A DNA stretch of 64,000 nucleotides from Antedon mediterranea (Eukaryota; Echinodermata; Crinoidea; Comatulida; Antedonidae): the NCBI RefSeq assembly GCF_964355755.1, contig NC_092672.1, forward strand, positions 33,662,501 through 33,726,500. The letters are read 5' to 3'. The position numbers and the translations under genes were made by a program. Positions within the stretch are counted from its first letter, which is position 1, and the number at the start of each line of letters is the position of its first letter. The notes under the pieces are model-generated. The model was not told the DNA's origin. It saw nothing but the letters and a program-made list of their open reading frames with translations, and made no database searches. Of this stretch, positions 14,816 through 41,179 are shown piece after piece.

Positions 14816-15190
14816 CGAGACCCTACAATTTTCAGTCACGCCCACAAGTTCCGAGAAAGACACCTGCTTATTTCAGATTCTAATTAGTTAGGGTGGTTAA
14901 AATCAGTACCGAAAGTATGAACCAACTTTATATATTATATCGAGTAAAGATTCTAGAAAGAAGTTTGCCCTTACTGAATACGTATGAAACGCCATATGTG
15001 CAAAAATATTTATCTTTTTACTAAAATTAAGACAAAACTCCATCTGGAACCAACCCAAACTATCCCTCCGTGAGTATCGAGACCACGCCCACAAGTTCCG
15101 AGAAACACACACTGCTTATTTCAGATTCTAATTAGTTCAGGGTAACATCAAGTGGTTAAAATCAGAACCAACTTTATATACATCATCGAG
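14816..15190. repeat. Internal duplication at the start of segmental copy 1
   Basis: 'cacgcccacaagttccgaga' occurs at about 14836 and again at about 15073. Each is followed by 'tgcttatttcagattctaat', 'tggttaaaatcag' and 'accaactttatata'. Segmental copy 2 has one version only (about 37850), so one copy was gained here or lost there. Confidence 0.8.
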
Positions 15191-15195
15191 TAAAA

Positions 15196-15408
15196 ATGAT
15201 AGAACGTGGACGCGCGATTTACCGAATTTTGCCCTTACGTAAATGTATATATGCAGCTAGGTCTATAGCAACAAGGCCTATCTTCTATCCACTATATTCA
15301 TTTGAAATTGTAATGAGTTGCCTTAACAGATATAACGACAATTTGTGGTTTATATGGCACAACTCTACACATACAGTAGACCAATGTAATGCGAATAATG
15401 TATTTTAA
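15196..15408 (+). CDS. Small frame conserved between the two segmental copies
   Basis: A 70-residue frame (MIERGRAIYRILPLRKCI ... CNANNVF) is repeated at 37961-38179. The two differ by few substitutions and one in-frame 3-bp indel. The stop in copy 1 is replaced by a CAA-TAA end in copy 2. Shared origin alone explains the similarity, so preservation of the frame is only weak evidence of coding. No family is recognised. Confidence 0.2.
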   Translation: MIERGRAIYRILPLRKCIYAARSIATRPIFYPLYSFEIVMSCLNRYNDNLWFIWHNSTHTVDQCNANNVF

Positions 15409-16154
15409 TAACTATCAATAATACTCAATACAACAACATTGGAATCAAAGCAAGAACGAACAAACATCGCCAGCGTACTAATTAATTGAATAAATGGTTT
15501 TTCAGAAACAATGCATATTCAAAATATCAATTATCAATTATAGCAGTTATATTAGTGTAGAAATATTATAGGCCTACGTATGATCAATTAATCAATCAAT
15601 TTTCAAAATAGCAGATAGAAAGAAATTCCAGATTTAAAAAAAAATACATCAGCTAGAGACTTATTCATATTATCAAATAGCAGTAAAATATCAAATGTTA
15701 AATATAGCATCTAATTCGTTTAGAAATTTCTATTTATATAACATAAATCATTTCCAGAACCAAGTATATCAAATATAGCTAGCTATATAGCAGTGTAACA
15801 ACAACATATTTACATAGGGGCCTTACTTATTATCATCATACATTTTTCAGAGTACCTAATTTATGAAGCAAAGTTCGAGAAAGAAAATGATTAAGCTACT
15901 CAGTAGCAACAGACTTAAATTAAAAAATACTGAATATAAATAGCTGATATATATAATTTTTGTAAGAAAAAGATTTATGTAAAGTAAATGTGCATTGGAA
16001 TTATACTTTATTATCATTGGAATCATACACATGTGGGCAAGTTTTAAACATTTATTCATACTGTCAATTTAGGTTTTTTTATCTTAGAAATTAGAAATCA
16101 ATAACATAATACCACAAAAGCTTTATGTAAAAAGAAAAACAGAAATCAGAGCCG

Positions 16155-17456
16155 TTAATCAAACGCATGAAGCTTGTAATCTCCTCTTTCAACAACAGAA
16201 AGGCGCCCAGATGGGGCCCGGTGATGGACATTTGCATTTTTCCGTATGATGCCTACTGCCGCATAAGTGCAACCCGTCCGAAGATCAGCCGGCAAGAAAT
16301 TGAAAATTTCTTCAGCTCCATAATTATTAGGAGGTTGAATTGGGTCGGGGAACAACGGAAATCTCCGTCGCCGATAAGCTAGAATTTCGACAGTGTTGAG
16401 GGCGTTTCTGGCGTACGATTGACTACTGCCTGGTTCTTCTTTAGAACAGCTTGCTACGACGGTGTTTCCGCCATGCTTGCGGAATGATTTATACCCGCCG
16501 CAAAATCTCACCCAATGATTATCTTCTCCGGAAATGTCATTGTAAACAACAATGTGCCAATGTCTCCAATCGTATTTTTCAGTGAGGAATGCATAAAATT
16601 TATCAGCAAAGTCACTGTTGCTTTTGCCATTTAACAACGCCAAATTGTTATTTAAATCGGTTAGGAGCTGTTGTTTCCAAACATCTTTCACTCTTGTGTC
16701 TACGTCAATCATATGGTCAGCTAACTTTTTGATGTTGTCTTCCCAAAATGTTTTTTCATCTTCATATGCGGCATTATAATCTTTGACTTTCAGGTACGCT
16801 AGATGAACTTTGACACCCTGTAATATTAAGTTCATTATTCCTTTCATAATTGTTTGAACTTTTCCTCGGTGCCTGTCTGTATATGTAATTGCTGTTTTCG
16901 GAATGTTATCTGACAAAGTAGATTCTTCCATCATACCGCGCCCGATGATTAATATGGCGCTATCTATTTGGACTGAGTAAGCAGCGATAAATAATTCCTT
17001 CTGTCCTTCAATTGCATCAGTTGGAGCGTCGAGAAACTGTTGTAGGCGATGAGACAAAGCATATATTTCGCCTTCATATTGTCCATACTGAGCTTTCAGA
17101 GATGTTTCTTGAATAAGATTTTTCACTTCTTGAAACTTTGTAAACACTTTGTCGAATTTTTCGTCTATTTTTTGGAATTCGGTCTTCATTAATTTCAATT
17201 CAGCAGACGGAGAAGTTGGTAAAAATATAGAGACCAACGCCATTACTGGCCCGATGGCACTTAAGAATGGTCCAATATTCTTGGTGAACTTGGCGATATC
17301 ATTGCTAAACTGGCTGGACAAGTGTTCATCACTAAAAACGTTGACGATCTCATTTCCGGCTTCTACCCCAGCTCTGACCTTATCGATAACTTCTGCTTCA
17401 TCCTCTCCGTAGATCGACGGAGTAAAAACCAAAATGCATAACAATGCAATATACAT
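16155..17456 (-). CDS. Secreted rapunzel-like protein, paralogue 1
   Basis: The ATG at 17456 gives 433 residues. It starts with a signal peptide (MYIALLCILVFTPSIYG), then an acidic helix (GEDEAEVIDKVRAGVEAG), a hydrophobic Gly/Pro segment (IGPFLSAIGPVMALVSIFLP), and a long amphipathic helical region with EFQKIDEKFDKVFTKFQEV and LIQETSLKAQYGQYEGEIY. The C-terminal half is richer in beta-type sequence (RHWHIVVYNDISGEDNHW, VRFCGGYKSFRKHGG). The hydrophobic segment followed by 'EFQKIDEKFD..F.EVKNLI' resembles the rapunzel family of animal proteins, whose biochemical role I cannot state. The family call is from memory of motif style. A minus-strand acceptor (tttttgtcttttcag) lies just upstream of the ATG, so a 5' non-coding exon is likely. 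Compared with paralogue 2 it has an extra 14-residue segment (RRRRFPLFPDPIQPP region). Confidence 0.75.
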   Translation of the reverse strand: MYIALLCILVFTPSIYGEDEAEVIDKVRAGVEAGNEIVNVFSDEHLSSQFSNDIAKFTKNIGPFLSAIGPVMALVSIFLPTSPSAELKLMKTEFQKIDEKFDKVFTKFQEVKNLIQETSLKAQYGQYEGEIYALSHRLQQFLDAPTDAIEGQKELFIAAYSVQIDSAILIIGRGMMEESTLSDNIPKTAITYTDRHRGKVQTIMKGIMNLILQGVKVHLAYLKVKDYNAAYEDEKTFWEDNIKKLADHMIDVDTRVKDVWKQQLLTDLNNNLALLNGKSNSDFADKFYAFLTEKYDWRHWHIVVYNDISGEDNHWVRFCGGYKSFRKHGGNTVVASCSKEEPGSSQSYARNALNTVEILAYRRRRFPLFPDPIQPPNNYGAEEIFNFLPADLRTGCTYAAVGIIRKNANVHHRAPSGRLSVVERGDYKLHAFD

Positions 17457-18319
17457 GGTCAAATTCTTTCTGAGCCTGAAAAGACAAAAATATCATATAA
17501 AAGAGCTATAGGAAATCATTTTTAGATCTACATCTAAATAGAGATCAGGATTACCCTTTACACACCTATGTTTTCAACATGGTAATTTAACATAACAAAT
17601 GATTAAAATGTTATAAACCAAAGAAATTGTTTCGGAAGAGACCAGGCGACGTCATCATGTATTAGAAACACAACATTACATAGGAAAACAAAAATCATCC
17701 TACGGAAAATAATTTTACTTTGATTAGTTGAGAAGCCATTGAGTATAGCCAATGTTCGTTTTGAAACTTGAAATAATGTTGTCCGTATTCTGAGCAGCAA
17801 AGTTATGGCGGAGCTGTCTATTTAGTATCAAATTGTTTAAACTATACATGTTTATAGTGACACTTTCTGAACATTTTGTTGAAACATGACCGGAAATTCC
17901 ATTTTGTTACCATATATAATTGTCATACATAAAAAAAAAATTTTTTTTTACAAATTTTTTGGGGTTAGGCCCTATATTTTCATATTTTGACCTGACTAAC
18001 ATGTCTTTGTTAAAATGTGAGCGAACTTCTAGATACATCCAGAAACAAAAAAACAGCGAAAAATCTTGATGAGGAGAGCTAAGTTTTTCATTCAGCCGAT
18101 TATCCGGACTTTATCTATTTCCGAAGTATCATAAGAATTTGGTAATACATCACATGTGTTTCGCATGTATCTAGTAGCAACACGTACCCACTTGATACAG
18201 GCACCACATGTGATATAAATGTGATGCTGAAACTGTGGAACCTTTTGCTAGAAACTGTGAAGCTTTAAAATTCACTATAATCTTAATACTACATTACTCG
18301 TATTTGACCCCCATGCATA

Positions 18320-18560
18320 TAAAGAAAAAAGGTATCGCAAAGTGTGACATGCAGTGTTACAAAGTGCGACTGTGCAATTTAAAGTGCGATAGATCAGTTA
18401 TTACAAAGTGCGATCACTTTCACTACAAAGTGCAAAAGGAATACAAGCGCGAAAACTTTTTTAGAAAGTGCGATAGATATTTCAAAGTGCGAACACGTTA
18501 TTAAAAAGTATTATAGGTACCTATTACAAAGTGGAAAGTGCGACAGCTATTACACAAAAG
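18320..18560. repeat. Irregular AAAGTGCGA array, copy 1
   Basis: At least eight 'caaagtgcga'-type words are spaced 15-35 bp apart. The same array, with the same irregular spacing, is at 41180-41400 in segmental copy 2, so the array predates the duplication. Confidence 0.85.
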
Positions 18561-18605
18561 TTCGACATAACAATTGGTTAGCCAATAATATGCTATATGT
18601 TATAT

Positions 18606-19253
18606 AAATCTATTTATCCATGACTGGTCCTCTATTTTAGATAAAAGATCTCCACTCCATATTGATGCCATTTTTTTAGATATCTCGAAGGCCTTTGACC
18701 GGATGCCTCATGACATTCTCCTCAATAAGCTTTCCCGCAGCAATTTAACATTACTGGTGATATATGGTACTGGTTAAAGTCTTTTTTAATTAAAATATAC
18801 CAAAAGGTTCAATTTAAAGGGTCTTCATCTAACTGGGTGGAGGTAACCAGTGGGGAACCTCAAGACAGTGTACTCGGTCCCATTCTTTTTAACTTTTTTA
18901 TTAACGATATTATTTGTTCACTTAAATGTAAAACTGCTATTTTTGCTGATGATACTCTTATTTATAATGCAATTAACTCTCCTCAGGATTCTCTAAACCT
19001 TCAAGCTGATCTGGACCGACTCGGTCTGTGGAGCCAAGCAAATCGCATGCCTTTCAATGTTATGAAGACGAATGTCCTGCATGTCACACGTTCGCGTAAC
19101 AGACAGTTGTCTAAATACCTTTTGTTTGGCTCTCATATTAGTCCGGTGACATCTTTTAAATACCTTGGTGTTACTTTTAACTCAAAATTGACCTGGGATG
19201 ACCATGTCCATGTCATTGTTTCCAAAGCTAAACGTATGTTGGACTTTGTTTGG
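18606..19253 (+). pseudogene. Truncated, frameshifted LINE reverse transcriptase
   Basis: Fragments of a non-LTR retrotransposon reverse transcriptase: DAIFLDISKAFDRMPHDIL (18664-18720), then, after at least one frame change, SGEPQDSVLGPILFNFFIN and the catalytic-type FADD (residues AIFADDTLIYNA). It ends in the conserved FKYLGVTFNSKLTWDDHV block. It is bounded by unique junctions: segmental copy 2 has a different 850-bp sequence (41458-42305) in the same position. Too degraded for a clade call beyond the Jockey/CR1 group style. Confidence 0.85.
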
Positions 19254-20298
19254 AGAGCGAGCATATTTATATGATTGGAAAATGAAGATTGCTTTTGATT
19301 GGTGGAAAGCAAAGTATACATTTGGACAACAAACCAATCACTCACGAGTTTGTTTTTTTTCAAAGGCGTTAAACACAGTTGTAGGCCTAAGTCACTAAAA
19401 TTTATTTTTTAAGAAGCAAATTGAGGTTTTGATGACTGTCAAAACGTAATTTGGTCAATGATCATTATTGGCGAAATTTCTAATTGATACTGTACACATT
19501 TTTTTGCTTGACTTGTTCGAGAGTTAACGTATCATTGTGCAATTCTTCCTTTTTAATATTGTATTTTTAATAGTTTTAATAATGTTATGATAAAATCTTT
19601 TAATCAGCTGTATGTATTATATATAACCACCATTCTCGTACGGTTCATGTCTAACAACAAGAAACTGCTGCGCTGTTCCATGTCAAGCGACCATAACAGG
19701 CCCATCCATATCACGCATGTGTCACTGTTGCATGTCCCAGTACTGTACTACTGTAAAACTTCATTCATCTAATGTGAAATTGTCCGCCGGCAACCAGAGT
19801 CGAGTCGTAGGCCCAACCAAACAATGGAACTCGCTCGCATTATAATTATAGACCTAGGTTATACAGTACTACGGTGACTACTTCTTCGCATGCAGCTAAA
19901 GTAAAATGACGTCACGTTAAAGTGGGTAGTCACAGAGTATCATGCATATTAATGAAGCAAACTTGCTGAGAGTGTTTTCCACCACACCACCACATAGTTA
20001 GGGTTAAAAACGTCATTTTTTAACCAAACCTGGAAAAAATTATTTACAAAGGATTTTTATCATCAAACTTAACATATAAGTCCCAGGGGTCACCAAAAAA
20101 AAGTTCTAGTGATTTTCTCTATGGGGGAAGGAGTTATGACCTTTTATATAAAGGTCAATCTATTTTTAGTAATGAGTTAGTACTTCATTAACCACACAGT
20201 GTAGATGCTTAATTTTAGTCTCAAATTGTTCGCAATGTACAATTTCCTATTTGCAATAATGGAATATTTTTCTAAAAAATTACCAGCAATGCTATTTC

Positions 20299-20311
20299 TG
20301 ACCTTTGACCT
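20299..20311 (-). promoter_or_regulatory. Perfect DR1 nuclear-receptor-type motif in left inner inverted repeat
   Basis: TGACCTTTGACCT is two AGGTCA half-sites spaced by one base, read on the minus strand. Its mirror occurs in the right arm at 24411. Sequence match only; binding is not shown. Confidence 0.35.
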
Positions 20312-20479
20312 TTCTTGACCGGAAGTTTCATAGCTACATAACTATTTGACCTAGAGAGTGGGTTTTGGTCTTAATTTGTTTATAATGTACAACTTTATAT
20401 TTGCAGTAATGACACATTTTTCTATAAAGCAAGTAGAAATACCATTTATTGACCGTTGAACCCAATTAACCAATCTATA

Positions 20480-22045
20480 TATAAATTATGGTAAATTATG
20501 GTTAATTCTGACATAGGCGAGCACAATGCAAAAACTTCGGTACAAATCTCCGCCTTGGATACCTACCTTATCTATCCGAGATGTACCGCGAAACGTAGAT
20601 TTGATAACATTAGTGTTCACGCCGACGCTATTGTTCCATATTTATATCTTAGGAAGATATTATTATAAAGAGTTTTTTAACAACATTTATGATTTCAACA
20701 TTAGATTTTCCTCTCAATTTCAATTCTTCCCGGTCAAAGTAATTTCCGGGTTTAAGATAAGTTCACCTTGCAACAACCTTAGTTTCAAATATTTTCTCTC
20801 TTTTAAACACAAGGGAGCAGTTAAAATAATAGATTTGACCCTAAAGGTGACTGGAAACAGGCACTTTCCATCAATCAATACAGTGTCCCTTAAGTTGGCC
20901 ATTAATCATAGCCATTTCAGTTTTTTTGTTTATTTTAAAACATACCGCGCGTGTGTGAAGGTACAGTAGTTAAATAATAGGAATTATACTGCAAATTAAT
21001 AAAGATCAAATTAAATATTCGCCATAAAGATCAGAATATATTGTGGGGAATAGTATTATAAAATTACATAGGGAGATTTGAGGATAAGACATTTTTAGAG
21101 TGAAATCCCGATAGCTGAGTTTTATTGAGTAAGCTTGCAGGAATAACTGTAGGCTATCTTCCTGTGTCCCGTAAGGACCGAGATGTCTGCCCATGTTGCA
21201 AGCCGTAATGTCTTCTTTCTTGGGCCCACTCTGTCACGGCAGTTAGTTTCAAAAGATGATTAAATTAAATAATGTATTAATAATTATTAGGATGGTATTC
21301 ATTTGAATAAACGCCTCTCCAATAAAACATCACTTTGAATAATCCCCCCCCCCCTCCCGCCAACCCAACTATCTAATAAACGTCCATCCACATATTTATA
21401 ACAACACAATTATACTATTTGTAGTAGAATTCACCGCACTGTTATCTACAATTTATCAAGCATTTGTTATTCTTTTTTAGCACTTTTCATATCTATTAGA
21501 GGATTTCATTTTATTATAAATGTTACCATATTATTAAAACTACAAAATGTAACATATATCCCTCGAATAAGCACCTCCCTCAAATGACCTCCGCCTCCCC
21601 AAAGGGCCCTACCAAACAATAAAAACTGTACTTTAAAATGTTATTAATCATCTAAAACACTGTGAAACAAAGTAGTTTAGTTTTACGAATGTCAAGCATT
21701 TTCAATAATGGTAACCGACAGAAAACGTATAAGGAGAACATTATCATTCCGAGAACCATCGTCTACACTTCCTAGAGGGGGAGCGAGCGAAGCGAGCTCA
21801 CCCTCTAGGATTATTCAATTATTATTAATAATATAATTCAAGTATTAACACCGCCACCACATGGCTGTACATAGGCTAAACTTTTTGACCAATCAGGAAG
21901 CGCCATCTAGCAGGATACATTTCAAATGTTTGTTAGAAAGAGTGCAGCAACAGCATATCAAATGCAATTTTGGTAAGCATAAATAGAATATTTGTTTATG
22001 TATAGAGAAGCAACACACATTAGACAAAGGCAGCAGTATATACCT
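20480..22045. other. Non-coding left interior of the FEN-like element
   Basis: Contains a 147-residue plus-strand frame (20526-20969) with no recognisable domain, an AT-rich stretch, and a GC-rich hairpin at 21771-21809. No other feature is supported. Confidence 0.4.
21771..21809. repeat. GC-rich hairpin in the FEN-like element
   Basis: CCTAGAGGG-x-GAGC is followed after 11 bases by GCTC-x-CCCTCTAGG, a stem of 13 pairs with one mismatch around 'gagcgaagcga'. It lies about 245 bp upstream of the FEN-like gene. Confidence 0.7.
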
Positions 22046-22052
22046 TCAGACT

Positions 22053-23983
22053 ATGTTGCAGCTGAAAAAAGATGATCCTGCCACATGGGCGATATTCTGC
22101 AATGGGGATCATACCATCAGATATAACGAAAAACAGTGGACAGGTGTATGGAGTGACATAGCAATTGAACAGACCCTTATGAGACATTCAAAATCACAGG
22201 GCGGTTTGTCTATGGGCCGGATGAGGGGTACTTCAACTACAAGCGGAGCAACATACCTGCCTTGGGCACTGACTTTGAATCATGTTTCTGAGATCCATCA
22301 CCTACTAGAAGACAAAGGAAACACTCCAAACCTGCCACACAAAGAATGCTCACAAAGTGCAATGAAAATTGACACATCTACCTTCGGTCAAGTACTCAAT
22401 TGGTTCAATGAACGTTCTCCATTTGAAGATCCACAGAATAGTAAAATCATCGTTTCACTGTCGACAGGTTTATCCACTGAATTCGTCAACGAAGTAAATT
22501 GTGACAATGGCTACAATATAGGTCTCACCATACAGAAACAAGTAGATGCTAAACCTCTGAATCACAGAATGTCTACACGAAACATTAAACCATTATCATG
22601 TCTACAAAAATGTTTACAAGACTTGTCTTTCTCAGAGAACGTGATAACTTTTCACTACGTGAAACATTAAAATATGAACTGACACCTCTACCAACATCCC
22701 TGTATGATACCTCTGAATTTTTACAGAAGCCTGACAAGGCGTCACTTGGGAACTATCTCAAAACCATATCTGAGTCAGCCAGTCTTCAAACATCAACAAT
22801 CCAACCCAGTGTGTACGTTATAGATGGAGGATGGTTGATACATCAGATTCCATGGACTCCAAATTCAAAATTCCTAGATATAATTAAATCCTACAGTAAT
22901 TATATCAAAAAGAATTTCCAGGCAGGAACAGTAGAAGTCATTTTTGACACTTACACACATGCATCAATAAAAGACCGTGAACACAAACGCAGAACAAAGA
23001 TTAAATGTGCAAATTATAAGGTGTCAACAAACCAAAGATGTATTGTCCAAAAGACACAGTTTCTTTCAAATTTGAAAAATAAGCAAGAACTAATTAACTT
23101 ATTAGGATCGACTTTAGCCGAGGATGGAGTTAATGTTTACCATGCTTATTCAGCAGATGCTGACATGCTCATAGTTGAACGTGCAATACAATCAACCGAA
23201 CTAAGTTCCAATATAGTGGTTGTAGCAGAGGACACGGACATTTTGGTTATGCTGGTTCACTGGAATAAGGGAAATAACATCTATCTTAAAACAAAATTAA
23301 CTATGTATAATGTGTTAGAAATACAAGAGAAACTACCTAAGACTGTTCTTAAGTATATATTATTAATTCATGCATTCAGTGGATGTGATAGTACATCTTC
23401 TGTGTTTGGCAAGGGAAAAGTTAAACTAGCATCAAAGCTTGAAAAAATCAGTAATCTAGAGAAAATTGATGTATTTTATTCAGACACCCCCACAAATGAG
23501 GGGATACACGAAGCAGGCATCTCATTGATGCAACTAATGTATGGTGCTGATGAAGACATGACAACATTAAGAGTACGTATGTACTCCAAAATGGTAGCGA
23601 AGGGTAGCTTAACAATTGAGCGTCTACCTCCAACTGAAGGTGCCATCCTACAGCACTCATTGAGGGTATGGTTTCAAGTACTGGACTGGAGGAAATTAGC
23701 ACATCATGAAATTGATGCCACCAAATACGGTTGGAAAAACATCAATGGTGAACTAACACCAGTCCCAACATTAGACGAATATGCTCCTATGTCACTCTTA
23801 AAGTTTATCTGTTGTAACTGTAAATCTGGAAATGGTAATGAGATGTGTAAAACGAATAGATGTAATTGTAGAAAGAGTAAACTTAAATGCTTAAGTGCAT
23901 GTGGGTCATGTATGGGCAAATGTGAAAATGGCTCATGTAACTTTTCATTCATTTTTCTGATGAAGACACCTAGACTTTACTGA
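22053..23983 (+). pseudogene. FEN/PIN-like nuclease-domain gene of a DNA transposon, frameshifted
   Basis: Two overlapping frames, 22053-22670 and 22598-23983, read as one protein broken by a single-base frame change near 22590; an unannotated intron cannot be excluded. The first part (205 residues, ATWAIFCNGDHTIRYNEK onward) looks like the N-terminal region of this invertebrate family. The second (461 residues) has the FEN/PIN-like signature: YVIDGGWLIHQ, VEVIFDTYTHASIKDREHKR, SADADMLIVERAI, VVVAEDTDILVML, then HAFSGCDSTSSVFGKGK, with acidic residues placed as in metal-dependent 5' nucleases. The C-terminus is Cys-rich (CCNCKSG, CKTNRCNCRKSKLKC, CGSCMGKC), like a CXC-type zinc-binding module. 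It sits centrally between long inverted repeats, so it is a transposon gene. Function in transposition is inferred. Confidence 0.75.
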
Positions 23984-24410
23984 CACAGTAATAATCTGGC
24001 TAGTCTCAACAACAAAAAAATCATCAGCTTTCGTCTAAGTGACGGTGTATGTTTTAAAGAAAGTTGATTATTTGGTAAAAATAATATCATTGCACGTCTA
24101 TAATTACATGTAGATTTTAAACTATTACCAATAATAAGGAATCTTTAGTAAGTAAACGACTGGGAGCAATATCCAAGTTTCGGTGTTATTACATGATGAA
24201 TAATCCCCTCCCCCACCCTCAAAAACATTTAAAATGTGATTTTTTTTCTCAAGTTTGGTGCTCTTTTCACATATTAGTTAATAAAACCATACTTCTCGTC
24301 ACAATTGTACATAATGCTCCATTATACCAAATAGGAACATACATGTTCTTAACAATTTGAGACCAATATGAAGATTATGCGACCAGTAGTTCTTGAGATA
24401 TAATAAGCTG

Positions 24411-24423
24411 AGGTCAAAGGTCA
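24411..24423 (+). promoter_or_regulatory. Perfect DR1 nuclear-receptor-type motif in right inner inverted repeat
   Basis: AGGTCAAAGGTCA, the mirror of the motif at 20299-20311, is kept perfect although the surrounding arms have diverged. Confidence 0.35.
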
Positions 24424-24993
24424 AAACGTCAGAAATATAATTTCTGGTCACTTTTGTACAAAATGTTTCATTATGAAGAATAGGAATATGTATCTTCTAA
24501 ACAATTTAAGACCAAAACCAAGTCTCCATGATTAATGGTTACCAAGATACAAGCATGTCAAGTTGTAAGCGGCCATTTTGAAAATGGCGCCAAAAAAAAG
24601 TTTCCCATGGGCCAAATCCTTAGAACTTTTTTTTGGTGGTATTTTAGATTCATATAAAGGTTTTCCCATAAAAATCGCTTTGTAAATAATTTTTTCTAGG
24701 TTTGGTGCTGATTTTACGCGACGCGAGATTTATCGAAACTCCTGAGTCAAATATAATTGTTTTAACTGCTGAGGATAATAAATAATATATTTAATTTTAA
24801 CATAACAGGAAAGCCTAGATACTTCCAGTGCGAATAACAAATATTATATAACACCTATATAAATTCCTGTCATTTGATTGGACGAATGTGGGTCACATGG
24901 CGTGCAATAGTACGCACTATTCAACGATCGTTAAATAGTACTTTTTGAAACATTTTTGTGTACGAAAAAAAAACGTCTAGATGTTATATAAAA

Positions 24994-25153
24994 CAAATAA
25001 TGAATGTTTTGTATTCGTGTAATGGTACAAATAATGGCACTTGGTGAATGATGAAAGGTTATATCAACTCGGCTTTGCCTCGTTGATATAACCTTTCATC
25101 ATTCACCTCGTGCCATTATTTGTACCATTGCACTCATAAACATTCATTATTTG
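24994..25153. repeat. Long near-perfect hairpin (about 73-bp arms)
   Basis: The left arm, 'caaataatgaatgttttgta' ... 'gaaaggttatatcaac' (24994-25068), is the reverse complement, with few mismatches, of 25082-25153. The 13-base loop region 'tcggctttgcctc' is itself partly self-complementary. Probably a snap-back MITE inserted into the right part of the FEN-like element. Confidence 0.88.
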
Positions 25154-26184
25154 TATATTAATGTACAGTATATAGTATGCGTATTTTCAAATGCTGCAAG
25201 ACATGAGACTCGAAATAGGCTAGGCCTAGGCCTAGTGGCAGCGCAGTGCATACCTAGCTAGAGCTAGGGTTGGTGGGACGGTTTAGTTAGCTAGATGCTG
25301 GGTTAGTGTACGATGCTACGCGCGCGGTAACGATGGAGGATATGGATGGCCTGATAGTGGGTAGTGTAAACTTACTCTAATATACTGCTGCATTTTACTT
25401 TAGTTAGGCCGCTAGTGAGTTAGTATCCTAGAAAAGTCTTTCTAGGCCTAGGCATCTAAGCCAAATGGGTCAAATAAACAACTATATTTAATCTGCTTCT
25501 TTGTTATCAGGAACAATATCGGAATTATTTTATTTTCTGTACCACCGATCGCACCATCATATCACTCTGAAAACATTTTGTAAAATCATGAGCTCGCAAA
25601 GCAGAGACAAAACATCCTTTTGCATATGCATGAGACTCTGTGACGACACGCTTTAAGGTGACGTCATTTTACTTTAGCTGCATGCGAAGAAGTAGTCACC
25701 ACACATTCAGTATCAAATGGGAGCTATATTCGGACCATCAAAATGAAGACATGAACATGCTCATGGACATTGATTATTAACAACTTAGGAAGTTTTAAAG
25801 GAAGGTGTGATTGGATATTGAGGGAGAGCGTCATTTCGACAATCGAGCATTCTCTATTATACTCTCTAGTATCAAGTAGTGGAAACATGTTTTTTTTCCT
25901 TCGTAATTGATAGTGTTTTAGAGTAAAGTTTAAAGGGATCAGTGCTTATCAATTCAGTTACAGTATTATTTGTTTACATTTTCTGCAAAGTAGATGTGTT
26001 AATGTAATTCACTTCCATGATTTCCTCTAAAAGTTTTCTTTTGTATGAAGTGTAGAAACATTTCTTGAATTTGCGTTTTATTAATGTGTATCATTTTCAT
26101 TTAGTTTTGTAGAACTTTTGTGAACCACTTTGGAAATCAATATATTTGTATTAATAAAGATTAAGTAAAATTAAGTAACCATAG

Positions 26185-27235
26185 CAAAATTATAGTATTG
26201 TGTTCCTGGGGTATCATTTTGGGTAGGCCTATATGGAACACAATGCATATATGATGAATAAACCACTGTAATAAGCAATGAGGCCGTTTTCATATGTTAA
26301 AGCATTGTGTTCCGTGGTATCATTTTGGGTATATGGAACAAATGCATTATATATAATGAATAAACCACAATACGAGGCCGTTTTCCTATGTTAAAGCATT
26401 GTGTTCCTGGGGTATCATTTTGGGTATATGGAACACAATGCATTATATATGATGAATAAACCACTGTAATATGAGGCCGTTTTCCTATGTTAAAGTTTTG
26501 TGTTCCTGGGGTATCATTTTGGGTATATGGAACACAATGCATTATATAATGAATAAACCACTGTAAGCAATGAGGCCGTTTTGCTATGTTATAGCATTGT
26601 GTTCCTGTGGTATCATTTTGGGTATATGGAACACAATGCATTATATATGATGAATAAACCACTGTAATAATGAGGCCGTTTTCCTATGTTAAAGCATTGT
26701 GTTCCTGTGGTATCATTTTGGGTATATGGAACACAATGCATTATAATAATGAATAAACCACTGTAATAAGCAATGAGGCCGTTTTGCTATGTCATAGCAT
26801 TGTGTTCCTGGGGTATCATTTTGTGTATATGGAACACAATGCATTATATATGATGAATAAACCACTGTAATAAGCAATTAGGCCGTTTTCCTATGTTAAA
26901 GTATTGTGTTCCTGGGGTATCATTTTGGGTATATGGAACTGTCAATGCATTATATATGATGAATAAACCACTGTAATATGAGGCCGTTTTCCTATGTTGA
27001 AGTATTGTGTTCCTGGGGTATCATTTTGGGTATATGGAACACAATGCATTATATATGATGAATAAACCACTGTAATATGAGGCCGTTTTCCTATGTTAAA
27101 GCATTGTGTTCCTGAGGTATCATTTTGGGTATTATATATGATGAATAAACCACTGTAATATGAGGCCGTTTTCCTATGTTGAAGCATTGTGTTCCTGGGG
27201 TATTATGTTGGGTATGTAGAACACAATGCATTTGA
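26185..27235. repeat. Satellite with a roughly 100-bp unit and internal stem
   Basis: 'gaggccgttt' recurs at 26281, 26376, 26475, 26574, 26673, 26777, 26881, 26982, 27080 and 27163. Each unit has 'cattgtgttcc' and 'ggaacacaatg' flanking 'ggtatcattttgggtatat', a 10-11 bp stem. One more unit lies beyond the LINE at 32730-32826. Minus-strand frames through it are repeat artefacts. Confidence 0.93.
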
Positions 27236-27481
27236 GGGCGCTGATCAAGCTGCAGCCATCACGTTTTTCTTGTTCGCTCTTCGCTTTCTTCTTTTTTTGT
27301 GTGTGTTTTTTGTTCGTAGCCCCTTTTTTGATGTAATTTGATGATTTTTGATGTTAGTAACTGTTCCCGATTGTGCTGTCTCGTTTTTATAGTCTTGTGA
27401 ACTGTTTTTTACGTGTTATATACTCTCCGACCAACAATCTGCAACATAGGCTAGGCTACCCCGCTTCCGTTGGCCGCTACA

Positions 27482-28034
27482 ATGTGCAAGCAGAATTCCA
27501 CCGGCACTCGCTATGATGAGTTAACAACATCCGGAAGCGTGATCAGAGCTAGGCATAGGCCTAGAGGAAGGAGAGCAGGGCGGAAAGTACGGCGCATGAT
27601 TCCAGTCATATTCAATGTTTTCCCGATTGAATCTAAACGGCCTCACATCATTTATAGAACCCCTGTGAGAACTGTCATTCATATCGCTACTTCAACAAAG
27701 CAGGATAACAATAGGCTAACGATAGAGAAGAATATTAAGCAACAACATTTGCCTAATTTTTTAGTAACGAACGCCCAATCGCTGATCAATAAGCGTGATG
27801 AATTTCATCTGTTGATGAATAAGGAATCAGTTAATGTTGGTATAATTACTGAGAGCTGGTTTTCTACCACCCACCATCAAGACCAACTGGACATACCTGG
27901 TTATGCCTTATTCTCCAAATGTCGTGAAGACCGACGTGGGGGTGGAGTAGCAATCTACAGCAAAGATGGCCTCAATGCTCAAGAACTTAAGGTTGCAGCC
28001 CCCCCTGAGTTGGAGATTCTTTGGATCAAACTAA
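27482..28034 (+). pseudogene. LINE polyprotein part 1: N-terminus and AP-endonuclease start
   Basis: Starts at ATG 27482 with a basic N-terminal region (RARHRPRGRRAGRKVRR), then endonuclease-domain motifs: NFLVTNAQSLINKRDEF, VGIITESWFS and GYALFSKCREDRRGGGVAIY. It stops being LINE sequence at 28034, where an inverted-repeat element interrupts it after 'EILWIKL'. Confidence 0.85.
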
Positions 28035-28849
28035 AGCCCCTTTCTCACAGATGTGCCTGCAATATACCGGTACAGTGCTGGCGTCGTGCCGGTATCGTTA
28101 CCGGCATATACCCATTCTCATCGGACTATCGTGCCGGAAATATAACCGGTATATACCGGCTTTCTGTGAGAAAGGAGTCGGGCATATTCGGCCAATAAAA
28201 AGTCTCTGACAAAATAATTATTGAGGGCGTCCTTTATTGTTATTATTTTTGTCTAGCGATGATATGGCGGCGAATGTTAAGTTACAGATTATTATTTTCC
28301 TTTATAGCATATTTATGCAATAAATACAGTATATTGTGCATATATTATACAGGTATAGCAATTAATTTGCCGTCATCGGCAATCTGTAAAACACCTTAGA
28401 AGGCTGTAGGCCTACAATTTACAAGGCGACGAAAGGTCAGGCACCAACAAACAAAGAGCTATGGCTGGCCTGAGCCTAGCGGCCTATATAGATTATGCTA
28501 CAAATTTCTTCTTGTCCCCTTATTTTAAGCAGCTCTCTTATCTCATTATCCCTCCAGTTCGACATTACTATTGTTAATTGAATTGAATATGCGCCAAAGT
28601 GATACACTTGACTGCGCAAGGTGTCAAAGCCTCGACGGGGAACCCCGGAATATAACGGCAATACGTTCTCACAGAATGCCCGTCTGGCATTGCGGGGAAT
28701 ATCCCTAGAATATTACTAGGTCTAAAGCAGGTCATGTCGATGCCGGCATGATGCCAAGACGACCCGTTCTCACAGAAAACCATACCGGCATGGTAATGGT
28801 ATATTCCCGCAATATTCCTGGCACACAACTCTGTGAGAAAGGGGCTTAA
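28035..28849. mobile_element. 815-bp inverted-repeat element inside the LINE
   Basis: The termini are 'aagcccctttctcacagatg' on the left and 'tctgtgagaaaggggctta' on the right, at about 28035 and 28849. Beyond them, subterminal 'gcaatataccgg'-type words recur inverted (ccgcaatattcc). TA lies at both edges. It has no transposase. A GC-rich 'ccggcat/ccggtat' word is scattered through both arms. Confidence 0.85.
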
Positions 28850-29413
28850 GAGGCACCAGACTACCTAGAGGACTATCGCAAATTGTAGTGTGTGGTATAT
28901 ATATAGTCACAGATTCACCACATCAACAGTTATTGAAAGAACATCTAATCAACACAATTGATGAAATTCGCACACGGTCCCCAGATACCGGATTTTGCAT
29001 AGCTGGTGATTTCAACCGTATGGTAATTGGTGACATTCTTAAAGGCAACGATTTTCGTCAAATTGTTAAATTTAACACGCGTAATAATGCTGTTCTTGAT
29101 CTAATCATTACAAATATGGATGACACGTTTTATACAGCACCATCTGCATTAGCGCCTATTGGTATGAGCGATCATGTGTGTGTACTATGGAAACCAAAGA
29201 TCAGACCGCGACTCAACTCTACAAAGAACATAGTGGTTCGTCCATTTTATGAATCAAGAAAATGTGAGTTTGGAAGATGGTTATTAACACAGGATTGGCT
29301 TGAGGTGATCAATAGCGCTTCTACTCAAGACAAAATGGACGCTCTTTATAACATTTTGAACAGTGCAATAGATAAGTATTTTCCGACAAAAAAAGTAAAA
29401 ATACACTGTGCTG
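28850..29413 (+). pseudogene. LINE polyprotein part 2: AP-endonuclease C-terminal part
   Basis: Carries the endonuclease motifs CIAGDFNRM, LDLIITNMDD and the catalytic-type GMSDHVCVLW, then a linker to DKYFPTKKVKIHC. It is interrupted at 29414 by a hAT-like element. Upstream it continues the reading order of the 27482-28034 segment. Confidence 0.85.
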
Positions 29414-30723
29414 CAGGGGCGCAGCCAGTGGGGGGTCACGGGGGTCCTGACCCCCCTTTTTTTTTAGAAAAAATAAATAAAAACATGAGACAACAATACA
29501 GATCAAATCATCCTGGAGATACTGTGGAAGATTACTACCGAGCAGTATTACCAAATCAACTTCTTGATTACAAACCGAGTTAAAAACCCGTTTTTCTGCC
29601 GATAACAGGCCATGCTTTAAAATATTTGGCGTAGCACCCGAGTCTATAGTGAAGTGTAATGTTGAAGAAGTCTTCAAGGAACTTGAATTTGGTACGATGA
29701 TCTGCCAAGACACGAACATCTTCATTCCGAGCTTCAGTGATGGAAGCGACTGTGTAAAATTAGCGGATCCAGATGTGTTCCCGAATGTGCGTGCACTTCT
29801 TCTAATCGCGTAGGCCTATGCCCGTAACGTCTGAGTTTTTCGACTTTATGGAGAAAAAAACCTGTTTGGGAAATCACATGTCTTATGAGCAGCTTTTGGG
29901 ATTGTGCCTCATGAACATACACTTTAACATGAACATTAATACAGAGAATGTCATTCGCGAATTCTGTCTCCAAGCCAAGAAGAATGTATGTTCCAAACTT
30001 ATGTTTAAAGATGCATCACGCGATGTCAAGAGCGCCGTTATAGTAACTAACGTAAAATGTATGATAATAATTTAGAAGTTAGTTATTACAATTATGTATA
30101 AGCTATCACCTATACTATACATTCGAACAAAATAGGTATATTTTTAAACAAAATATTGTATGTACTGGGTATGATAAGCGTCTCACATAAACACGGAGCC
30201 AAGATAGCTTCTTGGACTTGCACAGTATGAACTCTAACCTTACGGTTCTCATTTAATAATATCACTCCCTCCATGCTATCATTCTAATTTCTTTTTTCAA
30301 ACTTTTGCATCTCTACGTTCATTTCATGCAACTTTTGTATTGGTGAAAAGGGAGGAATTCAAATAATTCCTCCTCTGAGTTTACAGCCTCTCTACACAAA
30401 TCAACAAACAAGCAAGAAAAAAAGTGTTTGTCTGTGGCAGCCTGGAATATAAAAATGTTCTGTAATGAAAATGAGAGTTGTTTTTTGTTTTCTTTGTTAC
30501 AGTTTTTTAGTGTTAACATTGTCATATTTGTGTGTGCGTAAACCGATTCAAATGATCTAGATTGCCCTAGACCGCCAAAGCTTCCAGGGGGCTTCGCCCC
30601 CTGGACCCCAACCGGGGGCCCTTGGCGGCCCCCTGGCCCCCAGCCCATGGTTGCTCGCTTCGCTCGCAAAATACTCACATATTGGTTGACCCCCCCTTTA
30701 ATCCTTTGCTGGCTGCGCCCCTG
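29414..30723. mobile_element. hAT-like element with transposase remnant inside the LINE
   Basis: It has perfect 15-bp ends CAGGGGCGCAGCCAG / CTGGCTGCGCCCCTG. TGCTG directly flanks both ends (29409-29413, 30724-30728), and CTGTGCTG is present at both junctions. At about 29590-30020 broken plus-strand frames read KTRFSADNRPCF-type and KTCLGNHMSYEQLLGLCLMN, then IHFNMNINTENVIREF. These resemble the C-terminal dimerisation region of hAT transposases. Frameshifts and stops make it inactive. Confidence 0.82.
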
Positions 30724-32542
30724 TGCTGATAGACCCTGGATAACTAATTGCATTAGAGACCTAATAGCTAAGAGGCAGACTGCTTTTGCTAGGGGGGACA
30801 CAACACTTTTTAAGAAGTTACGAAATAAAGTAAAACGAGAAATTGAATTGGCCAAAACTAAGTATTTTTCAACTAGAATAAGACACCTACGGCACAATGA
30901 CCCACGAAAATGGCACTCGCAAATTAAAGATTTAACATCATCTAAAATGGGTCGAGATCTAAATATTAATGTTACAGACATATCCGCCTCTGATCACATA
31001 GGTATCGCTAATGCAATTAATTCCCAGTTTGCTAGCATTAATAATGACATACCCCCACTAGACTATTGTATTTTACCGGCATATTTGCCATGTAACAGCC
31101 CTGCACCGCAAGTTAAAGAATGGGAGGTTTATAATAAGTTAAGAAAAACCAACCCGCATAAATTAGTAGGACCTGATAAAATACCACCCTTAATTCTTAA
31201 AGAGTTTGCCCTTGAGTTAAGTGAACCCCTCACTAATATTTTAAATTGCTCATTTAGGGAAGGAAGTCTCCCGACCCAATGGAAATCTGCTGTGACTGTT
31301 CCTATCCCCAAGGTACATCCACCAAAAATTGATAAGTTAAGACCTATCTCGTTAACATCTGCCTTTGCAAAAGTGGCAGAGCAATTTGTTTGTGAATGGG
31401 TGGTATCTGATATCCAGAATAAATTAGATGTAAGACAGTATGGCAATGTCAAAGGGGCATCAACTAGCCACTACTTAGTACGTCTAGTTCATGATATGTG
31501 TGCTGCAGCTGAGGAGGCTCATAACATAGGGACGGTTGTCCTTACGGACTTCACTAAGGCCTTTGATCGAATTGAACACAACACCTTAATCAATAAAATC
31601 ATCGACATTGGAGTCCGTAGGTCTATCGTCCCTTGGATTTGTAGCTTCCTCAGCTGCAGAGAACAATGTGTAAAATATAACAACTCCCTATCAAGTGCTA
31701 TCACGTTAAAAGCTGGTGTCCCCCAGGGGACTAAACTTGGTCCCATTGCATTTCAAATCATGATCAATGATGCTGTTAAGGGTGCTAAAACGAATGCTTT
31801 AAAATACGTTGATGACCTATCTGTTTATGAAAATCGTAAGATAACACAACCAGGTCACTTGCAGCATGATCTTAATGAGTTTCATGATTGGTGTAAAAGG
31901 AATATTATGGACCTGAACCCTGCTAAATGCCAGGCACTACAAATATGTTTTAGTAAAAGGAATATTCCTGAAAATAAAATTTATATCGGGGGTAACGAAC
32001 TAGCATTTGTCACTCATGCTAAAATACTTGGAGTCACGTTACAAAATAACTTAAAATGGGATAAGCATATTGGGGATATTGTCCTCAAGGCTAATAGGAA
32101 GCTTTTTATTTTAAGGAGTCTAAAGAAATTTGGCTTCAACCCTGATGAACTATGCTCTGTCTACTGCGGGTATATTAGACCCCTCCTTGAATATGCCGAT
32201 GTTGTATGGCACCCCGGCTTAACCAAATCGCTTAGCAACTCTATAGAATCTGTCCAACGCAGAGCATGCCGTACCATATTGGGAAGGGATTTTAGTTCGT
32301 ATGACAAAGCTCTAAAGGTCTGTAACATCTCATCCCTTACTGATAGGAGCATAGCTCACAGTCTCAAATTTGCCAAGGGAATATCTCAGACCGTTCATTC
32401 TGCCGATCTTTTACCGGTGACACGGTTTGGAAGTCATGGGAGGTTGCTCCGTAATAGTAATAACATTTCACAATTACCATCCAGAACCGCCCGTTTCAGT
32501 AACAGCCCAATCCCTTATTTTATCCGCCTGCTTAACGCCTGA
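30724..32542 (+). pseudogene. LINE polyprotein part 3: reverse transcriptase
   Basis: An open frame of about 600 residues contains the reverse-transcriptase blocks in order: KLVGPDKIPPLILKEF, WKSAVTVPIPKV, LRPISLTSAFAKVAEQ, VVLTDFTKAFDRIEHN, AGVPQGTKLGPIAFQIMIN and the catalytic YVDD (KYVDDLSVY). The thumb block KILGVTLQNNLKWDKH and the C-terminal YIRPLLEYADVVWHPGL, RRACRTILG follow. This is CR1/L2/Jockey-group style. The domain itself looks intact; the element is disabled by the upstream insertions. Confidence 0.9.
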
Positions 32543-32729
32543 TTTTCACTCATTTTTGTATAATTTATTATTTTGTATGTTTCTATTTTGTATATTTTTA
32601 TTGGTCTTGGTACATGCATGTAAAAGTTACCCACAATCTGGCCTTTGGCCACTAGTGGTAACTTGTGGCATGGTGGTGTCTAATGTTTTTTTGATGTTTT
32701 ATATGAAATAAAAGAATAATAATAATAAA

Positions 32730-32826
32730 GCATTATATATAATGAATAAACCACTGTAATATGAGGCCGTTTTCCTATGTTAAAGTATTGTGTTCCAGGG
32801 TATCATTTTGGGTATATGGAACACAA
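32730..32826. repeat. Orphan unit of the 100-bp satellite after the LINE
   Basis: 'cattatatataatgaataaa' through 'ggtatatggaacacaata' is one unit of the 26185-27235 satellite, resuming directly after the LINE tail. Confidence 0.93.
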
Positions 32827-32947
32827 TAGTTCTGCAAATGGCGATATTTCTGTATTTTTTCAATCAATTGCCTGCTTGCGAGTATTATATAAGGTAGATC
32901 TTTGGCTATGTTCGGCTTCGGGATGTTATACCACACTTAGGCCTATG

Positions 32948-33050
32948 CTAGGCTTAGGGGTCGTCGGTTTCGTGTTATGGGTCTTCCAATTCTAGGTCGT
33001 CCGATTCGAGGTCGCCCGGGTCGTCGGGGTCGTCCAATTCGAGGTCGTCG
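32948..33050. repeat. GGTCGTC short tandem repeat
   Basis: Variants of 'ggtcgtccgattcgaggtcg' repeat about five times with imperfect period. It is GC-rich against AT-rich surroundings, near the right terminus of the 13.8-kb insertion. Confidence 0.75.
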
Positions 33051-33494
33051 CTTTCTACACACCCAGTTTATACGTAAGTATTATTTTTTATTTATGTCAA
33101 AAGATGACCTTTTGATACGTGATTTTTAAAATAAAATATCACTTAATCTGTCAATAAAAAATTAATAGATATAATATGTCAGGCAAGTAAAAAAATTTAA
33201 TAATGCATTTAATTAAAGTGTAAATGAAATGTCCATGCAACTGATATTACAATATATTTACAAAAATGATCAAAATAATATCAATTGAAATTATTCATTC
33301 AGTCTGGTTTCACATTAGATGAATGAAGTTTTACAGTAGTACAGTACTGGGACATGCAACAGTGACACATGCGTGATATGGATGGGCCTGTTATGGTCGC
33401 TTGACATGGAACAGCACAGCAGTTTCTTGTTGTTAGACATGAACCGTACGAGAATCGGGTGATATAACCTTGCTTTTACTGTATTTTTTTGGTT

Positions 33495-33519
33495 ATCCGC
33501 ACTTGGCGGATAACCCCTT
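33495..33519. repeat. Hairpin present only in segmental copy 1
   Basis: GGTTATCCGC-acttg-GCGGATAACC is a perfect 10-bp stem with a 5-base loop. Segmental copy 2 reads straight from 'tactgtattttt' into 'gtattttgttag' without it, so it was inserted into copy 1 or lost from copy 2. Confidence 0.8.
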
Positions 33520-33689
33520 GTTGTATTTTGTTAGTATAGTATAAAGTATATCTTTTTTTTAAATAGTTCATGCCAGTTTCAAATGTATTTCCATTTTATA
33601 TTACTATGGACAATAAAATAATATCAGTGTCAGTAGTATCAGTATATTATATCAAACTGTTGAGTGTCTATTGCAATATATTTTCCATT

Positions 33690-34390
33690 TTTACCGCAGA
33701 AGAAGGAGAGTTAATTGTAGTTACACCTTATTTCCTTATTAGAATCACCGAATGGCAAACCCTCGTAAACTTGGTAAATTGTACAATAGTTCTCTTGTTT
33801 ATGGAATGAAAGGGACACGTTAATTGTTGAAAATATTACTAGTCTTTTTTATCGCAGAATAAGGATAGTGAAGTGTTGTTGTTACACCTTATTTCCAATT
33901 AAAAGCATTAATCAGGAAAACCCTCGTAAATGGTACAATAGTTCTCTTGTTTATGGAATGAAAGGGGCACGTTAATTGTTGAAAATATTACTAGTCTTTT
34001 TTATCGCAGAATAAGGATAGTGAAGTGTTGTTGTTACACCTTATTTCCAATTAAAATCATTAATCAGGAAAACCCTCGTAAATGGTAAAATAATTCTCTT
34101 GTTTATAGAATGAAAGGGGCACGTTAATTGTTGAAATATTGCTAGTCTTTTTTATCGCAGAATAAGGATAGTGAAGTGTTGTTGTTACACCTTATTTCCA
34201 ATTAAAAGCATTAATCAGGAAAACCATCGTAAATGGTAAAATAATTCTATTGTTTATAGAATGAAAGGGGCACGTTAATTGTTGAAAATATTACTTTAGT
34301 CTTTTTTTCATTACCGCAGAAGAAGAAGCGTTAATTGTTACCGGTAGGCCTACATCTTATTTCCAGTTAGAAACAGCGAACTTTCAAAAT
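33690..34390. repeat. Roughly 152-bp tandem repeat, five units
   Basis: 'gcagaa(taagg/gaagg)' recurs at about 33697, 33853, 34006, 34157 and 34315. The unit includes 'ttacaccttatttccaatta', 'aaaccctcgtaaatgg' and 'gaatgaaaggggcacgttaa'. Segmental copy 2 has about three units (46640-47100). Confidence 0.9.
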
Positions 34391-34705
34391 TGTATAACAT
34401 ATTGCCCTTGTTTATAGAATGAAAACATTTTACGAAGATCTAGAGCCTCGTTTCCACTCGTCGAATTTTTTCGGGCGAATCGAGCTTGTATGCATGCGTA
34501 GAGGAATTGGAAGATGAAAACATTAATACGAATGCGTATAAGCTGACGCTTTCGATTCACGTGTACAAATTCGCATTTCAGTGTGAGTAACATAAATTAT
34601 AGTCGGTTAATACACTTCATATACAGATTGATGTTACAGATACATTTATTCATGAAATAACAAATAAAAAAGTTGGTTACAAAATAATAGTTTAAGTTTA
34701 AAACA

Positions 34706-35270
34706 GTAATTATTAATTAATGTAATTCCAAATTAAATACAAATTGTTTGTAAATTGTTGTACCTTTTGGGTTTGTAGTAGCTACAACGTTTAATCATGA
34801 TCTATATACTCACCGTTGTCTACTTCTTGTGGGAATAATAATACAGTAATAGACAAGGTACTTTTATGCTTCGTTTGTTTATGGTTAAGTTTGCCTTGCA
34901 TCTACTTTTCAAAACGAGCGCTAGAGAGTAGTAAAGTCAGTGATGACGTATCGCAACTATACAGGGGCGGACCAATGGGTGTCATTTAACAATTCGCTTC
35001 GACACAGGTCACTCACACGGGTCCTGTGGCTCAAATACTCAGTGTCTACAGCGCTGGATGCGATTTTTTTTTCGTACATAAGTTGGGGACCCCTCATGAA
35101 ACGTCACAAAATAAACATGAATAATTCATCAGTTAAATTTGTTGTTCCGTGTGCACGGTTTTGTTGATGATATCCCTTGTTGCAAAATCAATATTTCAAA
35201 TCACCAATGGAACTGTTATAATAAATAAATACATACCATAAATATTTATGATAGTCAGATTACCCTCTCC
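34706..35270. other. Unique spacer between segmental copies, left part
   Basis: AT-rich, no supported gene. It leads into the minus-strand FEN-like gene copy. Confidence 0.4.
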
Positions 35271-37540: not shown

Positions 37541-37960
37541 ATCCATGCCTAAACAAATTCGATAGGCTCGTTGTCCAACAAGTGATGATGTTACGAAGGC
37601 TGACCTGGGTGTGTTGATTGGCTACTTTGTTAACGTAACAAAATAGTTTGTTTGCCTCCTGTTAGACTTGCCCCAAGTCTGTATTCATTGTCTTTTTTAT
37701 TTTTTTTTTATTTCGATCTTTGCGTATCCAAGCTCAAGTAGTATACGTATAAAACGCCATATGTGCAAAAATATTTATCTTTTTACTAAAATTAAGACAA
37801 AACTTCATCTGGAACCAACCCAAACTATCCCTCCGTGAGTATGGAGACCACGCCCACAAGTTCCGAGAAACACACACTGTTTATTTCAGATTCTAATTAG
37901 TTCAGGGTTACATCAAGTGGTTAAATGCAGAACCAACTTTATATACATCATCGAGTAAAA

Positions 37961-38179
37961 ATGATAGAACGTGGACGCGCGATTTACCGAATTTTGCCCT
38001 TACGTAAATGTATAGATGCAGCTAGGTCAATAGCAACAAGGCCTACTATCTTCTATCCACTATATTCATTTGAAATTGTAATGAGTTGCCTTAACAGATA
38101 TAACGACAATTTGTGGTTTATATGGCACAACTCTACACATACAGTAGACCAATGTAATGCGAATAATGTATTTCAATAA
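37961..38179 (+). CDS. Small conserved frame, copy 2
   Basis: Counterpart of 15196-15408 (MIERGRAIYRILPLRKCI ...), one residue longer internally (ATRPTIFYP) and one at the end (NNVFQ). No family recognised; may be non-coding. Confidence 0.2.
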   Translation: MIERGRAIYRILPLRKCIDAARSIATRPTIFYPLYSFEIVMSCLNRYNDNLWFIWHNSTHTVDQCNANNVFQ

Positions 38180-38942
38180 CTATCAATAATACTCAATACA
38201 TGGGAATCAAAGCAAGAACGAACAAACATCGCCAGCGTACTAACGCATATATTTAGGCCTAAAGCTTCAGAAAAATTAAATAAATTGTTTTCAGAAACAA
38301 TGCATATTCAAAATATTAATTATCAATTATAGCAGTTATATTAGTGTAGAAATATTATAGGCCTACCTATGATCAATTAATCAATCAATTTTCAAAATAG
38401 CAGATAGAAAGCAATTCCAGATTTTTTTAAATAAATCAATCAGCTAGAGATTTATTCATATTATTATTATTATATAGCAGTATAAGGAATATAAATTATC
38501 AAATGTTAAATATAGCATCTATATTCGTTTAGACATTTCTATTTATATAACAAATATAAATCATTTACAGAACCAAAAATATCAAATATAGCTAGCTATA
38601 GCAGTGTAACAACATTATACTTATAGAGGCATCAGACATTTCAGAGTACCTAAATTATAAAGCAAAGTTCGAGAAAGAAATATTAAGCTACTCAGTAGCA
38701 ACAGACTTAAATTCAAATACTTAATAAAAATAGCTGATATAAATAAAACGTTTGTAATGTTTTATGTAAGATAAATGTGCATGTGAAATTAAAATTAATT
38801 ATCCTTCGAATTATACACATCTGGGCAAGTTTTAACCATTTATTCATACTGCCAATTTAGGTTGTTTCATCTTAGAAATTAGAAATCAATAACATAACTA
38901 CCACAACCGCTTTATGTAAAAAGAAAAACAGAATCAGAGCCG

Positions 38943-40208: not shown

Positions 40209-41179
40209 GGTCAAATTCTTTCTGAGCCTGAAAAGACAAAATTCCATATAAAAGAGCTACAGGAAATCAATTTTAGATCTACAACTGAGTAGAAATACAG
40301 GATTATTCTAGCACGTCACCTACGTTTTCAACATGGTAATTTAACATAACAAAATGATTAAAATGTTATAAACCAAAGAAATTGTTTGCTTTTCGGAAGA
40401 GACCAGTCGACGTCATCATGCGTTAGAAACACAAAATTACATAGGAAAACAGAAATCGTCCTACGGAAAATAATTTTACTTTGGTTAGTTGAGAAGCCAT
40501 TGAGTATAGCTAATGTTCGTTTTGAAACTTGAAATATTGTTGTCCGTATTCTGAGCAAAGTTATGGCGGAGCTGTCTATTTAGTGTCAAATTGTTTAAAC
40601 TATACATGTTTATAGTGACACTTTCTGAACATTTTGTTGAAAAAGACCGGAAATTCCATTTTGTTACCATATATAATTGTCATACATAAAAAAAACATTT
40701 TTTTTGCAAATTTGTTGAGGTTAAGCCCTATATTTTCATATTTTGACCCGACTAACATGTCTTTGTTAAAATGTGAGCAAACTTCTAGATGCATCCAGAA
40801 ACAAAAAAGCAGCAAAAAATCTTGATGAGGAGAGCTAAGTTTTTCATTCAGCCGATTATCCGGACTTTATCTATTTCCGAAGTATCATAATAATTTGGTA
40901 ATACATCACATGTGTTTCACATGTATCTAGTAACAACACGTACCCACTTGATACAGGCACCACATGTGATATAAATGAGATACTGCATTACCAAATATGC
41001 CTTGATACTTCTTAAATATACAGCATTGTGAATCGGATGTTACGAGTGTATCGAAACTGTGGAACCTTTTGCTAGAAACTGTGAAGCTTTAAAATTCACT
41101 ATAATCTTAATAATAATTAACATTACTCGTATTTGACACCCCCCCCCCCCCTCATGCATATAAAGAAAAAAAAGGTATC

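Follow-up and report, generated by a model that had tools for sequence, protein, structure and literature searches.

A paralogous filled and empty site pair bounds nested mobile DNA in the crinoid Antedon mediterranea

We analysed a stretch of 64,000 nucleotides from the Antedon mediterranea genome (the window; C3:33662501-33726500 in a 354-Mb genome of 18 contigs) and found that one copy of a segmental duplication carries a 13.8-kb block of mobile DNA, while the aligned site in the other copy is empty. Very probably, a transposon of a family that we call F inserted into copy 1 after the duplication, copy 2 was never hit, and further nesting and an internal loss followed. The locus is thus a clear yet ordinary case of nested mobile DNA with a preserved paralogous empty site. 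The analysis rests on a single assembly.

A self-comparison of the window by BLAST identified a direct segmental duplication, in which 14978-19627 and 33462-34709 (copy 1) correspond to 37743-42822 and 46635-47384 (copy 2). The features that define the site are the following:

14978-19627, plus strand: segmental copy 1, left part, which pairs with 37743-42662 in the window self-BLAST.
19621-19627, plus strand: left 7-bp target site duplication, ATATAAC.
33462-33468, plus strand: right 7-bp target site duplication, ATATAAC.
37743-42822, plus strand: segmental copy 2, bearing the empty site, from the window self-BLAST.
42656-42662, plus strand: empty target site, ATATAAC, from the self-alignment and the alignment of D copies.
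42562-42796, plus strand: dispersed repeat D (~235 bp), LINE-3'-tail-like, which holds the target site, from the alignment of other genomic copies.

Around the site, self-BLAST aligned 19254-19628 with 42307-42663 and 33518-33661 with 42679-42822. When the flanks of copy 1 were joined, they matched copy 2 through the site with the sole exception of a 2-bp gap upstream of the target. The ATATAAC motif was present at both edges of the block in copy 1 and once at the aligned point of copy 2. The 8-mer ATATAACC, found at 19621, 33462 and 42656, occurs 7 times on the plus strand of the window and would by itself be weak evidence for that reason; what carries weight is that it marks precisely the outer limits of the inverted arms and also the matching position in copy 2. 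The filled and empty site pair that an earlier note had proposed for this DNA was therefore confirmed, with inverted ends lying between two ATATAAC motifs and an uninterrupted copy 2. In addition, the site was uninterrupted in all nine other D copies that we aligned, from five contigs, which indicates that the empty state is ancestral and that the insertion was gained by copy 1. The earlier note's order of events, with the insertion entering one duplicate after the duplication, agrees with both the empty copy 2 and the nine outgroup D copies.

It is very improbable that F was present before the duplication and was later precisely excised from copy 2. Such an excision could be read from the 2 bp (TT) that are present upstream of the site in copy 1 and in most D copies but not in copy 2, yet the missing TT falls outside the 7-bp target. 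Moreover, copy 2 contains ATATAAC only once and shows neither a duplication nor a scar at the target, it matches the nine untouched D copies through the site, and clean excision is uncommon among cut-and-paste elements. The reading in which copy 2 was never hit is based on this structure and not on divergence. Substitutions between the segmental copies amounted to 2.1–3.2% next to the insertion; in the left part of the pair (14978-19627), they were 2.3–2.9% near the insertion and 5.9–8.7% further out. The age of the duplication is uncertain because its outer parts are 6–9% diverged and contain repeats. Substitutions between F and its relatives amounted to 1.7–2.3%, and those between the two arms of F to 0.7%; thus, the two clocks (2–3% versus about 2%) separate the events poorly and simply agree with the order given by the structure. 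We also observed a perfect 10-bp hairpin in copy 1 (33491-33515; GGTTATCCGC-ACTTG-GCGGATAACC), inserted 22 bp past the right target duplication, that neither copy 2 nor any of the D copies read contains.

A later insertion specific to copy 2 forms a second filled and empty pair in the opposite direction:

42825-46637, plus strand: 3.8-kb TTAA element in copy 2, with the TTAA duplication at 42821-42824 and 46638-46641.

This element has GAGCCA inverted ends and no ORF longer than 101 aa, and copy 1 is empty for it, reading TTGA at 33660-33663.

In copy 1, the F element of the window spans 19628-33461. The earlier note spoke of a 13.8-kb nested insertion; F sequence proper makes up only ~640 bp of the 13.8 kb, in two remnants, and the remainder belongs to other elements (A, E, C, B and a LINE):

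19628-19871, plus strand: left remnant of F, including the left inverted terminus (19628-19779), 98% identical to the ends of the C7, C5 and C1 copies.
33067-33461, plus strand: right remnant of F, including the right inverted terminus (33308-33461), with substitutions of 1.8–2.3% against the C5 and C7 copies.

The inverted arms (19632-19779 and 33308-33455) are 148 nt long with one mismatch. A genome search with the terminal 200 bp found F ends at C7:11153386-11166875, C5:20900877-20912836 and C1:24197771-24225683, and these three copies begin and stop at the same bases as the block of the window, as the earlier note's ends would have it. Each of them has its own 7-bp target duplication (TCTGTGT, AATTTTG and GTCAATG, respectively). 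The outside copies start with CACCCG (in full CACCCGATTCTCGTACGG) and end with its complement, and the left terminus of the window F lacks 2 bp compared to them (CACC--ATTCTCG versus CACCCGATTCTCG). The inverted ends range from 148 to 172 bp, the latter in the complete copies. An 8-bp target duplication, as read in the earlier note, was rejected, since the three other copies have 7 bp; the eighth base, the C that follows ATATAAC, is the first base of the window F, so that the element starts at 19628, with 2 bp lost from its left terminus, and not at 19629.

The complete relatives of F measured 12.0 kb (C5), 13.5 kb (C7) and 27.9 kb (C1); the C1 copy comes to ~13.6 kb once a nested Ginger1-like element is set aside. 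No complete copy beyond these three was recovered with interior probes. The C5 and C1 copies were 99.8–100% identical in their shared DNA up to the termini and had unrelated flanks, which shows that they moved recently. The earlier note had asked whether copies recovered by their terminus would share the 100-bp satellite of the window and lack its nested elements: the nested elements were indeed missing, but so was the satellite, in all three copies. The satellite forms the inverted arms of another element elsewhere, so a founder travelling with a satellite of its own is not supported.

Several other features were observed in and around these F sequences. The C7 copy has a 2-kb insert, missing from the C5 copy, that is flanked by 16-bp repeat arrays in inverted orientation (L010:243-443 and 2072-2272) and represents another foldback-like element. 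A truncated F end on C3 adjoins a long tandem array with open frames in several reading frames (L017:2295-5223). The element within the C1 copy (~14.3 kb; L014:4361 to L015:9018) resembles Ginger1, which is defined by TGTNR termini and a CCGG target duplication (PMC2836005), in its TGTAAG terminus, its CCGG duplication and an integrase-like ORF. Ginger1 elements are 2.6–7 kb, in contrast to the ~14.3 kb found here, and the excess size points to further insertions inside it, probably.

We did not detect any gene in F. The C5 copy had no ORF longer than 100 aa lying wholly inside F, and a six-frame Pfam scan of a complete copy gave no credible match. Between the C7 and C5 copies, 37 of the 52 indels were not multiples of three, and the substitutions showed little codon phasing. 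Based on the lack of a detectable gene, F is non-autonomous, and presumably a transposase with its gene elsewhere mobilises it in trans. By analogy with Galileo and 1360, that transposase would most likely be of the P kind. The genome does contain P-type transposases (35 PF21787 matches). The 18-bp F terminus had 108 matches in the genome; no PF21787 domain was found near the ~100 of these 108 ends that were listed, and at one P-type transposase locus there were no F-matching termini within the pieces read. No autonomous partner of F was thus identified among them. Because no P transposase lies near the listed ends, we do not file F as P-type and say only that it works like one.

About 20 exact 18-bp termini, all on the minus strand, were found in a locally amplified region of C9 (L040-L047; C9:15.7-17.8 Mb), where the ~100 bp beyond each terminus are distantly F-like and several E-type ORFs are present. 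At L030:1501-1653, a match to 5S rRNA (Rfam RF00001, 41.7 bits) is separated by 14 bp from another of these termini. The 18-bp terminus as a piece of 5S rRNA was rejected, given that the 5S-like match was missing at the other loci tested.

F belongs to a known kind of DNA transposon and may be a new family. Galileo has 7-bp target duplications (PMC4168063), and F shares with Galileo and 1360/Hoppel, of the P superfamily, both its 7-bp duplications and its long inverted ends. The four F targets (ATATAAC, TCTGTGT, AATTTTG and GTCAATG) all agree with the 7-bp (7–8 bp) duplications of the superfamily, and the 172-bp ends of the complete copies with the long ends of Galileo. The many Galileo and 1360/Hoppel copies that lack coding capacity, and their tendency to recombine ectopically, were also counted as similarities. 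F differs from both in that no P-type transposase is tied to it, in the lack of a GTATTAC-like consensus among its four targets, and in its complete copies of 12.0–13.6 kb with no detectable gene. Other assignments fitted less well. A MULE/Mutator origin (duplication of 8–10 bp, usually 9) disagrees with the 7 bp of all four copies, a hAT origin (8 bp) with the eighth base, which differs in all three outside copies, and a Maverick/Polinton origin with both the duplication (6 bp in that group, 7 bp in F) and the content, since the group has polymerase B, integrase and capsid genes and a complete F copy gave no Pfam domain in six frames. That F represents an undescribed lineage of 12.0–13.6-kb gene-less elements jumping whole, with an 18-bp terminus common to ~100 ends and a transposase unrecognised as yet, is unlikely.

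Between the F remnants, the first layer from the left is element A, which is interrupted by element E:

19872-19993, plus strand: element A, left part, a high-copy element with terminus GGTGACTACTTC.
19994-24715, plus strand: element E, inserted in A, with related copies 92–99% identical by segment.
22589-23983, plus strand: 464-aa ORF of E, weakly flap-endonuclease/PIN-like according to low-confidence fold matches.
24716-25700, plus strand: element A, right part; the flanks of A in the window are CAGTACTAC and ACACATTCA.

The end of A gave 209 candidates in the genome at first look. Eight copies were read at both ends; perfect 9-bp target duplications flanked five of them and not the other three. 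From these 9-bp duplications, A is classed as MULE-type. No target duplication of E was recognised. The earlier note spoke of a FEN-like element: the structural model of the 464-aa protein had as its best fold matches flap endonucleases and FEN-type 5'-exonucleases (E 5e-4), which is only a hint given the poor model (mean pLDDT 44), and the ORF had no match in Pfam, NCBIfam or PDB sequences. A FEN-like protein is therefore plausible from the fold prediction, while the sequence searches did not bear it out.

The copy of A in the window is flanked by F sequence on the left and by repeat C on the right, its right terminus is intact, and there is no 9-bp target duplication between the flanks CAGTACTAC and ACACATTCA. 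This position between F and C without a target duplication indicates that the interior of F, of which ~12 kb are absent from the window, was probably removed by recombination or by a deletion adjacent to A; the simplest accounts of the absence are an exchange between an A copy lying in F and a second one lying in C, or a deletion on the A side. An insertion of A after the loss was rejected, because a 9-bp duplication would then be expected around A. It is possible, though somewhat less probable than the alternative, that the loss was a transposase-made adjacent deletion at A and not A-A recombination. The intact right terminus of A directly borders C and the left terminus borders F, which is the pattern that such deletions give. 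However, A is a high-copy element, and the lack of a perfect duplication in three of the eight other copies is consistent with frequent exchange within the family, so that an A-A exchange is at least as simple; ectopic recombination with swapping of target duplications is also known for Galileo (PMC2775673).

To the right of A, the order of the layers is given by repeat C, split by element B, which is in turn split by a LINE:

25701-25719, plus strand: repeat C fragment left of B, ACACATTCAGTATCAAATG, 19 bp, unbroken in other C copies.
25720-27232, plus strand: element B, left end and one tandem-repeat arm, with 99-bp units at 26190-27232.
27233-32729, plus strand: LINE in the satellite arm of B, with target duplication GCATT.
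32730-32833, plus strand: last satellite unit and truncated right end of B.
32834-33066, plus strand: repeat C, part right of B, SINE-like and high copy.

Other C copies read ACACATTCAGTATCAAATGGCGATATTTC without a break at the point where B splits the copy of the window. The right arm of B is mostly missing here. Elsewhere, on C1, C2, C4, C7, C9 and C10, the B satellite was found as facing plus and minus arrays a few kilobases apart, and these represent the arms of a foldback-type element. The inverted arms built from tandem repeats are those of foldback-type MULEs, and a target duplication of ~8–9 bp (GGAACTCG plus G/A) flanks the single copy for which both ends were read. Tm1 has 9-bp target duplications (PMC3169594), and B resembles Tm1 and other Foldback/MULE elements in its inverted tandem-repeat arms and duplication length. 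Its repeat unit differs, with ~99 bp in contrast to ~14 bp. The LINE was 100% identical (rounded) to three other copies over 30900-32500, which makes it the youngest datable layer. Inside the LINE, there is an insert with 30-bp inverted ends (28031-28850), and the surroundings of the C5 F copy (L003) contain a similar piece, 89% identical.

The single pair of F ends and the single target duplication that bound the block might suggest that the 13.8 kb moved as one composite already carrying the satellite, the LINE and E, but this is extremely improbable. These nested parts are absent from every complete F copy, A, B, C, E and the LINE each have copies elsewhere that are not associated with F, and the LINE has diverged far less from its relatives than F has.

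We propose that the block was built up in steps. A family F transposon entered repeat D of copy 1 by cut and paste, duplicating the 7-bp ATATAAC. Later, repeat C inserted into F, the foldback-type B into C and the LINE into the satellite arm of B. The MULE-type A, invaded by E, ended up between the left end of F and C, and an A-A exchange, or a deletion adjoining A, would have stripped most of F. The sequence directly shows the ends, the target duplications, the empty sites in copy 2 and the outgroup repeats, and the nesting of C in F, of B in C, of the LINE in B and of E in A, while the class of the transposase and the way in which F lost its interior are inferred.

The paralogous empty site, together with the nine outgroup sites, fixes internally the ends of the insertion, the length of its target duplication and the direction of change, and the nested layers give an order of activity for several mobile families of this genome. 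Finally, the F family raises a testable question, namely what mobilises a 12-kb gene-less element.
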